A stretch of DNA of 41,358 nt from a virus. Below are positions 2,840 to 30,072 of this stretch, one piece after another; position 1 is the stretch's first letter, and each line of letters starts with the position of its first letter. The stretch spans positions 1 to 41,358 of IMG/VR virus record IMGVR_UViG_3300007960_000051. The stretch is one strand, 5' to 3'. A model generated the notes under the pieces. That model saw nothing but the letters and a program-made list of their open reading frames with translations, ran no database searches and had not been told where the DNA came from. Made by a program: the position numbers and the translations under genes.

Positions 2840-3280
2840 ATGAGGAGTGGTTCTACATATTCAATTAAAGAAAAAATATTAAAACCAGGCTTGTCTGGAG
2901 TAGGTTATTTAACAGTTGCCTTATGTAAAGACATGCTAACGAGAACTCATAAAGTACACGTATTAGTTGCGATGTGTTTTCATAATCATAAACCAGACAA
3001 GTTCAATTTAGTGGTAAATCACATTGATTTTAATAAAACAAATAATAATTATGATAATTTGGAAATAGTGACGCAACGAGAAAATTCTAGTAAGATTAGA
3101 ACCAAGTATTTAAAAACTAGCAAGTATACTGGAGTAACTAAATGTAAGTGGGGAAAAAAGTGGATAGCAACTATTTGCATAAATAATAAATACCTGTATT
3201 TGGGTAGATATGATGATGAATATCAAGCGCATCTAGCTTATAAAAAAAGACTTAATGAATACTTAATCACTAAAAAATAA
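2840..3280 (+). CDS. HNH homing endonuclease with C-terminal AP2 domain, N-terminus eroded
   Basis: A free-standing homing endonuclease of the NUMOD4-HNH-AP2 type. The HNH core is seen in VHVLVAMCFHNH (H40), VNHIDFNKTNN (N60, H61) and NLEIVTQREN (N73). Residues ~94-142 form an AP2 DNA-binding domain (SKYTGVTKCKWGKKWIA ... YLGRYDDEYQAHLAY). The NUMOD4 region is broken: ATG 2824 opens MKPIIDEEWFYIFN and hits TAA, while the rest continues in another frame from ATG 2840, with the usual linking NUMOD4 segment missing. The protein from 2840 keeps the nuclease and AP2 parts and may or may not be active. It marks the accessory arm as open to insertion. Confidence 0.75.
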   Translation: MRSGSTYSIKEKILKPGLSGVGYLTVALCKDMLTRTHKVHVLVAMCFHNHKPDKFNLVVNHIDFNKTNNNYDNLEIVTQRENSSKIRTKYLKTSKYTGVTKCKWGKKWIATICINNKYLYLGRYDDEYQAHLAYKKRLNEYLITKK

Positions 3281-27740: not shown

Positions 27741-28232
27741 ATGAATAAATTGACTACATCTGTACTTGGTATCAGATTGATACAGAAATATGAAGGATTA
27801 AAACTTAGTGCTTATCTATGCCCGGCCGGCGTGTGGACTATTGGATATGGCCACATAAAAGGAGTGAAAGAAGGTGATATGTGTAGCGAAGCGCAAGCTC
27901 TTCAGTATCTCAAAGATGATCTACAAGAAACGGAGTCGTTTTTAAATAATTTCAATTTAGGTTTATCGCAAAGAGAGTTTGACGCTTTGGTTAGTTGGAT
28001 ATTTAATCTTGGAATCGGAAATTTCAAAAGCTCTACTTTACTCCAGTTAGTTATTTCGCAAAGCTATCATAAAATAGTTGACATTAAAGAGGAGGAAATT
28101 GTTGATTACATCGGAGAAAAGCAGACAAATGTGCTTCATTATAATTTTCTAAGGTGGTCAAAAGCTAATGGAAAAACTCTATTAGGATTGATTAAGAGAA
28201 GAGATGAAGAGTATAAGTTGTTTATTTCTTAG
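27741..28232 (+). CDS. Endolysin, GH24 lysozyme (muramidase)
   Basis: A 163-residue T4/P22-type lysozyme that cleaves the peptidoglycan glycan strand. KYEGLKL holds catalytic Glu18, and AYLCPAGVWTIGYGH follows. T4 residues E11, D20 and T26 align with Glu18, Cys27 and Thr33; Cys at the Asp position is a recurrent natural variant in phage GH24 enzymes. The C-terminal FNLGIGNF and GLIKRRDEEYKLF blocks are standard. No signal or SAR segment is evident, so export needs a holin. A tiny lipoprotein gene overlaps its 3' end. Confidence 0.93.
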   Translation: MNKLTTSVLGIRLIQKYEGLKLSAYLCPAGVWTIGYGHIKGVKEGDMCSEAQALQYLKDDLQETESFLNNFNLGLSQREFDALVSWIFNLGIGNFKSSTLLQLVISQSYHKIVDIKEEEIVDYIGEKQTNVLHYNFLRWSKANGKTLLGLIKRRDEEYKLFIS

Positions 28233-28332
28233 TATTATGCTTTGTCTGCTCGTTTCATGCAAGTCTATTGAGCTTGCATCCAAAAAGAGAGAAAAAGCCG
28301 TTAAATCGCAAATAATGAGATCAAAATGGTAA
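28204..28332 (+). CDS. Small lipoprotein overlapping the endolysin gene (o-spanin candidate)
   Basis: ATG 28204 opens a 42-residue ORF overlapping the endolysin end by 29 nt in another frame, and the next start (28326) by 7 nt. It has a clear lipoprotein signal with lipobox LVSC at residues 16-19. The mature peptide is about 24 residues and strongly basic. Overlap, size and lipidation resemble Rz1-type outer-membrane spanins. Which protein would be its inner-membrane partner (28326 or 26998) cannot be told from sequence. Confidence 0.6.
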   Translation: MKSISCLFLSIMLCLLVSCKSIELASKKREKAVKSQIMRSKW

Positions 28333-28550
28333 GAATAAAAGATTTTCTGTTAATGTTGTTTGGTGGTTTAATGGTGCTGATCGGTGTGGCCGTTGCGAAT
28401 AAGACAGCGAGTCCGACTACCATAAATAAGATCGGCAAACAAAAAATTAAGGGTGATGACGGAAGCATTGACACCACCTTCGAAAAGCCTGAAAAACCTA
28501 AGAAAAAGCGCAAGTTTCGGATATCCCTCCGCAGGAAAAAGCGAAAATAA
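28326..28550 (+). CDS. Membrane protein with basic tail, lysis region
   Basis: A 74-residue protein. Residues ~5-24 form one membrane segment (DFLLMLFGGLMVLIGVAVAN); the tail is hydrophilic and ends very basic (KPKKKRKFRISLRRKKRK). It overlaps the lipoprotein gene upstream and is the last gene before a weak terminator. It could be an inner-membrane spanin partner or a second holin/antiholin. No family signature. Confidence 0.5.
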   Translation: MVRIKDFLLMLFGGLMVLIGVAVANKTASPTTINKIGKQKIKGDDGSIDTTFEKPEKPKKKRKFRISLRRKKRK

Positions 28551-28562: not shown

Positions 28563-28595
28563 TTTGACTTTCTGTTATAAATAGTTATATATTTG
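28563..28595 (+). promoter_or_regulatory. Promoter of the second accessory array
   Basis: TTTGAC (28563-28568) and TATATTTG (28588-28595) have a 21-nt gap between TTTG and the -7 box. It faces the small genes 28742-30072. Transcription would start near 28602, leaving a long untranslated leader of about 140 nt. Confidence 0.75.
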
Positions 28596-28599
28596 ATGT

Positions 28600-28741
28600 A
28601 GCGACGACGTTGAGAATATGAAACGGTGGGATTTTACGCACCGACTTTGATGAATTGAATTGATGTAACTTAAACAGATTGGGCTAATTAGACACCCTGA
28701 CACCCACTGTTTTATATTTATTGTTAGGGTGCGTTATTATT
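28600..28741 (+). repeat. Repeat-containing leader of the second accessory array
   Basis: No ORF is credible here. ACGACGTTGA (28605-28614) recurs at 28995-29004 after the next gene, and ACGACGACGG at 29281. CGGTGGGATTTT (28624-28635) recurs at 35342-35353 and can form a hairpin with CACCG (28639-28643). GACACCCT (28691-28698) is complementary to AGGGTGTC (29009-29016) on the far side of the gene. GCGTTA (28731-28736) closes the region before the ATG. Confidence 0.5.
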
Positions 28742-28996
28742 ATGAAATACAAAATATACAGCTTAGAATACCCAGAGCATTTACAAAAAACTGAGCCTGA
28801 TGGATACCATATGAAAACAATAAGCAGAGCAGTATTGGAAGACGTAAACGAGGGGTGGGAAAGTGAATTTGAAACACCAGATGAGGCTTACAAACACATA
28901 GAAGCTCATTCAGAAAAATTAAAAGGTTGTGAACTGTGTGTATTGCCTATTATAAAAATAGACTACAATGGCGAAGTGAGCTAATGCACACTAACG
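28722..28996 (+). repeat. Inverted repeat flanking the gene at 28742
   Basis: TGTTAGGGTGCGTTA (28722-28736) and TAATGCACACTAACG (28982-28996) match at 12 of 15 positions when one is inverted. The left arm ends just before the start codon; the right arm begins in the stop codon. This is the layout of 843-1129 with different arm bases. Confidence 0.65.
28742..28984 (+). CDS. Hypothetical cassette-borne protein (80 aa)
   Basis: An 80-residue acidic soluble protein (MKYKIYSLEYPEHLQKTEPD at the start; FETPDEAYKHIEAHSEKLKG; two Cys in GCELCVLPI). The pattern EFETPDEAYKHIE is reminiscent of small proteins that read a time or parameter string, but no family is certain. The frame is open from TTG 28721 inside the inverted repeat; ATG 28742 is chosen because the identical GTGCGTTATTATTATG context starts the gene at 863. 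It is first in the second array, behind the promoter at 28563. Confidence 0.65.
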   Translation: MKYKIYSLEYPEHLQKTEPDGYHMKTISRAVLEDVNEGWESEFETPDEAYKHIEAHSEKLKGCELCVLPIIKIDYNGEVS

Positions 28997-29068
28997 ACGT
29001 TGAATGTAAGGGTGTCGTGGCTACCTTGAATAAAGCCACATAGTTTCAAAACTTAATAAAACTTAGAT
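28985..29068 (+). repeat. Intergenic region with hairpin, second array
   Basis: After the right arm of the previous cassette, GTGGCT (29017-29022) and AGCCAC (29034-29039) form a 6-bp hairpin. ACGACGTTGA is a direct copy of 28605-28614. No promoter or terminator is evident. Confidence 0.4.
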
Positions 29069-29281
29069 ATGAGTAAAAAAGATTCAAATACCACACAGCC
29101 ATGCACTTTACATAGTATTGTAGAGCGTTTAAAAAACCTGCAAAAATGGGATTGCTCGACTGGTGACTCTGGACCATTTGCAAGCCAAATAGATTGGGAG
29201 AAAGACAATGAATGGGGTAACTGGATAGATAAAGAAGATATAGAAAAGCTTATAGATGACATTGAATCAAATGATCTATAA
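29069..29281 (+). CDS. Hypothetical small acidic protein
   Basis: A 70-residue protein, acidic, with SIVERLKNLQKWDCSTGDSG and the C-terminal IDKEDIEKLIDDIESNDL. Soluble, no membrane segment. Its 3' flank (TATAACGACGACGG) repeats the ACGACG element of the array. Not recognised; probable cargo gene. Confidence 0.6.
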   Translation: MSKKDSNTTQPCTLHSIVERLKNLQKWDCSTGDSGPFASQIDWEKDNEWGNWIDKEDIEKLIDDIESNDL

Positions 29282-29406
29282 CGACGACGGCTGGCGGTAT
29301 GGTTAGTAAAGCCACCCACTACCGCAACATACAACGAACAAAACTTAATTGGCTTTATTAACTATGACCGCTTGTTATGGGCAGTTAAAAAAAAGGAGAA
29401 TTAAAT
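29282..29406 (+). repeat. attC-like intergenic region with 20-bp stem
   Basis: Positions 29294-29313 pair with 29351-29371 in a 20-bp stem (18 Watson-Crick, 2 G-T) with one bulged base on the right arm and a 37-nt loop. TAACGA (29279-29284) opens the region and CAGTTA (29382-29387) closes it. Outer boxes, long inner stem and an extra-helical base are the design of integron attC sites. Downstream, GGAG (29395-29398) is an unusual Shine-Dalgarno sequence for the next gene. Confidence 0.5.
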
Positions 29407-29733
29407 ATGAGACTATATGATTTAGAAAAAGTTTGGGATACAGAAGTTGTAAAATGGCTTGAAAATAGCATACCTGAATTAACAGTGTATCAGAAAGAAA
29501 GGATTAGAAATGATGAAATAGTGCGTTTTGCTCCATTTTACTTTATGAAACGTAAGAAAAAAGTTAACAATATACTAACAAGATTTAGTATAATATTACT
29601 TGTTCCAGTGTTTATTTTATTGATATTAGGATTACCTATCCACTTTTTCATTACAGGTAAATGGGGGTATTCTGAGAGAATGAGGTGGTATGGTAGATGG
29701 GTTCATGCGTGTGGGCTTTAATTGCCCATAACA
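29373..29733 (+). repeat. Inverted repeat flanking the gene at 29407
   Basis: TGTTATGGGCAGTTA (29373-29387) and TAATTGCCCATAACA (29719-29733) match at 14 of 15 positions. The right arm starts in the stop codon and runs into the third copy of the 18-nt repeat. Confidence 0.75.
29407..29721 (+). CDS. Cassette-borne membrane protein
   Basis: A 104-residue protein: a helical charged N-terminal domain (residues 1-58), one strong membrane segment (~59-82, FSIILLVPVFILLILGLPIHFF), then a short aromatic and basic tail ending MRWYGRWVHACGL. It is the only gene between the two arms of the 29373-29733 inverted repeat and has a rare Shine-Dalgarno (GGAG, 8 nt before ATG). Unknown function; inner-membrane location is clear. 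Confidence 0.65.
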   Translation: MRLYDLEKVWDTEVVKWLENSIPELTVYQKERIRNDEIVRFAPFYFMKRKKKVNNILTRFSIILLVPVFILLILGLPIHFFITGKWGYSERMRWYGRWVHACGL

Positions 29734-29749
29734 TCTGTATAAACGACAC
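29732..29749 (+). repeat. 18-nt dispersed repeat, copy 3
   Basis: CATCTGTATAAACGACAC follows directly on the right arm of the inverted repeat, as copy 1 does at 1128-1145. Confidence 0.65.
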
Positions 29750-29778
29750 TACTTTATAACAAAATTAACAGAAGTACT

Positions 29779-30072
29779 ATGAATAAAGCAAAGTATGTTA
29801 TAATGTATGCAAAGTGGAAGATCAAAGGATTTTCTAACTACATAATTACATCTGGAGGGATAATATATAGGCTACCCTACGAGGGGAAAGGCAGATATAA
29901 CAATTGGCACGAAGTTAAAGGGCATGAGTGTAGAGGTACTATTTATTACAACCTAAGAAAAGACTCCGGTGATTTTACTCGCCTTTCAAGGGAAAATATT
30001 AATAGATTGTCTTATTTGCACGAAAAAAGTTACGACACTAATATTCTAATAAACAAGCTCTTGCCGTTCTAA
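29779..30072 (+). CDS. Hypothetical accessory protein
   Basis: A 97-residue basic protein with many Tyr residues (GFSNYIITSGGIIYRLPYEG; GTIYYNLRKDSGDFTRLSRENI). The order 'YIITSGGIIYRL ... R' loosely recalls NUMOD4-type DNA-reading motifs of homing nucleases, but no HNH follows. Leader AGAAGTACTATG resembles that of the gene at 1602. Last gene of the array; its stop overlaps the palindrome at 30072-30090. Confidence 0.55.
   Translation: MNKAKYVIMYAKWKIKGFSNYIITSGGIIYRLPYEGKGRYNNWHEVKGHECRGTIYYNLRKDSGDFTRLSRENINRLSYLHEKSYDTNILINKLLPF

Follow-up and report, generated by a model that had tools for sequence, protein, structure and literature searches.

Cassette-like arrays with attC-like hairpin sites at two loci of a Bacteroidota tailed phage

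The window, by which we mean the whole stretch of DNA analysed (41,358 nucleotides), is an IMG/VR record of a Bacteroidota tailed phage, whose TerL is 59% identical to that of Riemerella phage RAP44. A terminal repeat was not found in the record, which may be incomplete. The sole near-identical contig (L018; viral, 6.7 kb, with an identical TerL) spans approximately window positions 3.3-10 kb, and includes neither of the two arrays described here.

Array 2 (window 28,582-29,750) lies between the last gene of the lysis region and position 29779, and contains three small genes, each held in a frame that resembles that of an integron cassette. The array opens with a hairpin and closes with an R'' arm followed by an 18-nt repeat, and there is no hairpin 3' of its last gene. 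Its features, with scores from the covariance model R1 described below, are:

27741-28232, endolysin gene of the lysis region
28326-28550, last gene of the lysis region, before array 2
28563-28595, + strand, candidate promoter-like element, TTTG-N21-TATATTTG
28595-28736, + strand, attC-like site 1 (72.3 bits, E 6e-14; training sequence), with an L''/L' stem that contains G.T wobbles
about 28692-28701, + strand, R''' loop copy of site 1, ACACCCTGAC
28723-28736, + strand, R' arm of cassette A, GTTAGGGTGCGTTA
28742-28984, + strand, cassette gene A, 80 aa, no Pfam or PHROG match
28982-29130, + strand, attC-like site 2 (43.8 bits, E 1.6e-7; non-training)
28982-28995, + strand, R'' arm of cassette A, TAATGCACACTAAC, which complements R' 28723-28736 with one mismatch in N7
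29069-29281, + strand, cassette gene B, 70 aa
29276-29387, + strand, attC-like site 3 (42.5 bits, E 3.3e-7; non-training)
29374-29387, + strand, R' arm of cassette C, GTTATGGGCAGTTA
29407-29721, + strand, cassette gene C, 104 aa, with a hydrophobic segment; PHROG 36118 (function-unassigned), E 1e-6
29719-29732, + strand, R'' arm of cassette C, TAATTGCCCATAAC, complement of R' 29374-29387
29733-29750, + strand, 18-nt repeat ATCTGTATAAACGACACT at the 3' end of array 2, candidate attI-like half-site

The initial annotation placed three to four small genes here, behind a promoter. Three of these are cassettes, and a fourth is not counted because 29779-30072 has no site. The promoter stands as a candidate, read from the sequence by its match to the Bacteroidota consensus, which is TTTG / TAnnTTTG. 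The cassette genes have almost no matches in Pfam and PHROGs, the protein encoded by 28742-28984 has no relative in the viral contigs searched, and the region from 28.0 to 30.3 kb shows no DNA similarity to phages. An Rfam search of the window returned no family within E 5.

The frame around each gene consists of a 5' arm of the form GTT-N7-GTTA and a 3' arm of the form TAAT-N7'-AAC, where N7' is complementary to N7. For genes A and C, the 5' arm precedes the start codon and the 3' arm is located at the stop codon; the frame of gene B is degenerate. Within the R' core, GTTR alone is constant (GTTAGGG, GTTGTAG and GTTATGG in the window). The exact frame has 10 matches, compared with 0 in the reversed-sequence control, in 2.39 Mb of fetched sequence that includes some loci fetched for their 5' arm. 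The arms around one gene in viral arrays agree at 4.43 of the 7 variable positions (permuted mean 2.32, max 3.17, n=5000), and the two arms within one intergenic site agree at just 2.10 of 7. The corresponding same-gene agreement in chromosomal arrays is 4.68 vs 2.46. Because same-gene arms match and same-site arms do not, we conclude that the gene-specific inverted arms reported earlier are real, and are part of each gene unit. The direct copies that had been seen after successive genes (TAGCGACGACGTTGA near 28600, TAACGACGTTGA near 28993 and TAACGACGACGG near 29280) are likewise real, and represent the R'' end plus spacer of the sites.

The frame of array 2 recurs at 0.7-1.15 kb, within array 1 (0.7-2.8 kb), whose features are:

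718-857, + strand, attC-like site of array 1 (112.3 bits, E 5e-23; training sequence)
815-824, + strand, loop copy R''' of this site, GAACTGCAAC
844-857, + strand, R' of this site, GTTGTAGTGCGTTA
863-1117, + strand, cassette gene, 84 aa, PHROG 2457
1115-1128, + strand, R'' arm TAATGCACTACAAC, complement of R' 844-857
1129-1146, + strand, 18-nt repeat, candidate attI-like half-site, with a further copy at 1565-1582
2645-2787, + strand, degenerate site after the ORF at 2381-2647, stem mostly lost (29.2 bits, E 3e-4)

The recurrent frame and the site at 718-857 bear out the proposal that the two loci share an architecture. The 18-nt repeat ATCYGTATAAACRACA is also found as first described, at 1129, 1565 and 29733, and is always immediately 3' of AAC or ACC; elsewhere among the fetched loci there is no copy except for a partial match in one contig (L344). 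The protein encoded by 863-1117 has no relatives in the viral contigs searched. A homologue in Riemerella phage GRNRAP2 (68% identical) is part of an ordinary operon, without a site or arms, and therefore one and the same gene can be found in a cassette or outside one. Array 1 adjoins a gene for an HNH-AP2 homing-type endonuclease (window 2840-3280), whose P12002L relatives are found at other positions.

A site of about 110-150 nt stands 5' of each array gene. Its elements are arranged in the order R''-AAC, a spacer of ~5 nt, L'', loop, L', ~3 nt, and R'. The spacers between R and L boxes are unpaired; the 5' one is usually 4-6 nt long and the 3' one 2-3 nt. In the window, covariance model R1, which is derived from a 28-site alignment (A1), detects one weak site and four clear ones (E 5e-23 to 3e-7). 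The hairpins that had been noticed in the gaps of array 2 correspond to model matches at 28595-28736, 28982-29130 and 29276-29387, of which the first, together with 718-857, is included in the training set and the other two are excluded from it.

Across the 28 sites, 98.7% of the cells of the 17-bp stem are paired (a figure that is biased upward, since pairing partly guided the choice of sites), and compensatory changes are seen in 13 of the 17 pairs. Stem covariation amounts to 0.589 vs 0.131 for shuffled data, and is reproduced on 139 model-found chromosomal sites (0.574 vs 0.141, with an alignment that was itself fitted to the model). Two stem positions are virtually invariant, with G.T in 27/28 and 28/28 sites, respectively, and the same two wobbles are present in 113/139 and 126/139 of the chromosomal sites. 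The ratio of G.T to A.C on the sense strand is 86:4 (39 sites, mostly viral, symmetric scoring), and this strand asymmetry is mostly that of the two fixed wobbles, not of extrahelical bases or bulges on the L'' arm. In the long-loop class, the third arm copy R''' in the loop complements the R' of the same site (mean 7.17 vs 6.21 permuted; 0/2000). Single-sequence folding of the window sites on the sense strand gives z values of -1.2 to -4.3. For 28595-28736, the fold of lowest energy pairs R''' with R', not L'' with L', and the DNA fold of 29276-29387 yields the L''/L' stem; R''' could form an alternative hairpin with R'.

Phages and chromosomes have opposite gene polarity relative to the site, as assigned from ORFs and not from annotation. 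In phages, the gene is on the folding strand and the site is 5' of the gene (46:4; 46/53 sites), whereas in chromosomes the gene is opposite the folding strand and is followed by the site, which is the integron order (66:7; 66/77 sites). Because the phage gene is inverted relative to the site, the folding strand in phages is the sense strand, and the site is effectively the gene's leader. The ends of array 2, with a hairpin first and an R'' arm last, are consistent with this polarity. Several phage-type ORFs start inside the loop and run through L' and R'. An example is gene B (29069-29281), whose coding region contains the L' and degenerate R' of site 2 (28982-29130), the same site that includes the R'' of cassette A. 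Since such ORFs read through L' and R', a crossover at R'' would fit and one at R' would be hard to reconcile with them. A reversed polarity of the whole system was considered and rejected, because the chromosomal arrays are in integron order and only the phage cassettes are inverted.

The leader TTGTT-N7-GTTATTATTATG precedes different genes in other phage contigs, and further site hairpins occur in more phage contigs, among them Cellulophaga phage phi19:3, which has a site 70% identical to 718-857. Between phages, DNA similarity is typically restricted to the site, with unrelated genes on both sides. Site 28595-28736, for example, is 87% identical over 143 nt to a phage contig (L004) whose flanking genes are unrelated. 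No sites were found in four 10-kb stretches of Riemerella phages (TerL 59%). R1 sites are present in Polaribacter phage P12002L, and may or may not be the attC sites assayed in PMC9892861.

One gene is common to two contigs, L103 and L140 (the latter labelled Methylophaga), where hairpin, gene and R'' form a block with sharp ends: conservation extends from the upstream R'' through the hairpin and the gene to a downstream AACGG, and then ends. The two copies bear different R'' arms, which suggests that the 3' arm has undergone recombination or gene conversion.

Chromosomes of the same phylum carry R1 sites as well, with matches in at least 98 of the 297 Bacteroidota genomes sampled (many of them MAGs; best 10 scored candidates per genome). 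Long one-way chromosomal arrays account for 139 sites in 376 kb fetched, and apparently represent an undescribed integron-like system. Such arrays are seen in contigs L312-L331 and L348-L363, several of them ending at an XerA/IntI-like recombinase. In 13 tabulated arrays, a tyrosine recombinase lies 0.4-1.5 kb past the last site, at what is the 3' end when the array is read in site orientation; the arrays of three genomes (G239, G247 and G153) have no recombinase in the stretches fetched. When recombinases were picked without knowledge of sites, 6/7 had sites nearby, some of these near the E 0.01 limit, and in a second set a site was in range for 4/20. The pooled result is 10/27 recombinases with sites (largely site-blind choice), all on the expected side. 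Given 6/7 and then 4/20, the link between recombinase and array is strong where arrays exist, and is not universal for the class.

By profile scores, the array recombinases fall around or below the thresholds for known integrases. For NF040815 (XerA/integron integrase; cut-off 220), four of the eight that were scanned reach 221-233 bits and the remaining four 162-219 bits, and for TIGR02249 (integron integrase; cut-off 265) the scores are 136-224 bits, below the cut-off. Their best PDB matches are 4a8e (6e-43), 5hxy (8e-38) and 2a3v (3e-34), and they share the catalytic domain with these XerA/XerC-like proteins (4a8e, 5hxy) and IntI4 (2a3v), but differ from them in being linked to cassette arrays, and in having a long form with an additional N-terminal domain. 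This domain comprises about 80-100 aa with the motif W...K.W.LP, and in one long-form member there is a weak HARP match (E 0.003); perhaps it recognises folded or forked DNA. Examples of N-terminally extended recombinases are L355:3550-4677, L350:6691-7752 and L356:4575-6335; L331:760-1866 is another array-adjacent recombinase. The array recombinases have no insert between the catalytic halves, in contrast to true IntI of the same phylum, which have one.

Taken across genomes, the sites beside unrelated genes and the L103/L140 block strongly support the suggestion, made when the window was first annotated, of repeated insertion by a shared mechanism, as do the plain-operon homologue in GRNRAP2 and the fact that chromosomal arrays usually end at a tyrosine recombinase. 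We consider it probable that both loci are integrase-less clusters of mobile cassettes (CALIN-like) with attC-like sites, belonging to a Bacteroidota-wide integron-like system. The arms, the site family with its covariation and strand asymmetry, the inverted polarity and the recombinases at array ends are all direct observations. There are three sites at 28.6-29.4 kb, and one clear plus one degenerate site at 0.7-2.8 kb, which compares with the definition of a CALIN as at least two attC sites and no integrase. A PF00589 (tyrosine recombinase) search of the window record gave no match, and no integrase gene is present; the window arrays are for this reason CALIN-like.

Integrase-less clusters in phages (phage CALINs) are known (Qi et al. 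2023, PMC9892861), and an attC site of Polaribacter phage P12002L was recombined with IntI1 in E. coli (PMC9892861). The present sites share with integron cassettes and CALINs the R''-L''-loop-L'-R' layout, the pairing of same-gene arms and the single-strand asymmetry, and the arrays share with integrons the one-way arrangement of small uncharacterised genes with a tyrosine recombinase at one end. They differ in several respects. The R' is GTT-R-N6-GTTA, not a strict GTTRRRY, and the long-loop sites have the third arm copy R'''. Integron attC sites carry extrahelical bases, in place of which there are two near-invariant G.T wobbles here. Unlike integrons, the phages have genes inverted with respect to the site, and the array recombinases lack the IntI insert, with some N-terminally extended. 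Vibrio-type sedentary chromosomal integrons are large arrays in gene-site order with the folding strand opposite the gene; the Bacteroidota chromosomal arrays resemble these in size, order and folding strand, and differ in site family and recombinase class. Since the R' core, wobbles, polarity and recombinase differ, we describe the window loci as CALIN-like arrays of an integron-like system, and not as any described integron class.

In the mechanism that we infer, which extends to folding in vivo, the acting enzyme, the crossover, the role of attI and the functions of the genes, R'' (the 3' arm) would pair with R' (the 5' arm) in a cassette circle, with the L''/L' stem above, to give one long single-strand hairpin whose G.T wobbles would mark the folding strand. 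An XerA/IntI-like tyrosine recombinase, or possibly IntI, would then exchange the folded strand with a receiving site, for which the window offers a candidate in the array-end half-site ATCYGTATAAACRACA. The crossover point would be AA^C of R''. With no tyrosine recombinase in the phage record, the enzyme would be supplied from outside it, probably by the host chromosome, or else by another co-resident element.

Whether the system stands apart from integrons is a narrower matter. We hold at about even odds that it is a distinct Bacteroidota system, defined by wobble-marked sites and an insert-less XerA/IntI-like recombinase, often with an extra N-terminal domain, in which phages use a separate pool of inverted cassettes with the sense strand recombinogenic. 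The inverted polarity, the wobble-marked sites and the insert-less recombinases appear to be new, and the literature covered, from which subscription papers were mostly absent, had no description of the site family or of such Bacteroidota arrays. A simpler account, which we think unlikely while giving it some weight, is that these are canonical CALINs, made up of ordinary cassettes from an IntI-type integron, with nothing unusual in polarity or enzyme. The IntI1 result for P12002L, the R1 sites of that same phage, and the presence of true IntI genes (TIGR02249 over the cut-off) in 84/297 Bacteroidota genomes are in its favour, but the inverted phage polarity and the insert-less array-adjacent recombinases are not expected from it, and the roughly 57 kb of sequence that surround 16 true IntI genes contain no R1 sites (a weak control, given the short flanks).

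Position in the 5' leader, just 3' of the promoter-like motif at 28563-28595, would also be natural for an RNA element, and we regard it as improbable, though worth stating, that the hairpins are RNA leaders controlling translation or transcription, and that homologous recombination has spread a useful leader. The G.U pairs would form in mRNA, and the complementarity of R''' and R' would permit an alternative hairpin. This account nevertheless fails to explain the gene-specific complement at the other end of the gene, the chromosomal sites, which follow the gene and have their wobbles on the non-coding strand, and the recombinases at array ends. A TIR-type transposon for each gene, or homing by the HNH-AP2 endonuclease, is very improbable: there are paired terminal arms for each gene and an HNH gene beside array 1, but the arms match within one gene only and differ between neighbours, whereas a single transposase family has fixed TIRs. 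Moreover, a transposase was not seen, the intergenic hairpin is unexplained, and array 2 has no HNH gene nearby.

The CALIN-like reading suggests that phages swap genes via a recombination system common in host chromosomes. If it is true, phages of a major bacterial phylum build up some of their accessory genome one cassette at a time, with a recombination system that is widespread in host chromosomes and apparently largely unrecognised. It gives a testable route for the acquisition of small uncharacterised phage genes. That gene polarity is opposite in phages and in chromosomes poses a new problem, namely how the strand is chosen in single-strand recombination. With the covariance model and the recombinase class, sites and enzymes can both be searched for.

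Two phage-type arrays, on L156 and L140, have a recombinase immediately after the cassette, and these two recombinases pair in the tree. The genome behind L140 (PAJP01000008, labelled Methylophaga) has nine such sites, most of them on L140, and the contig is perhaps a Bacteroidota phage or element that was binned wrongly. L156:1-8000 is a contig of a Salinivirgaceae MAG, with phage-like genes and a phage-type cassette that the recombinase directly follows.
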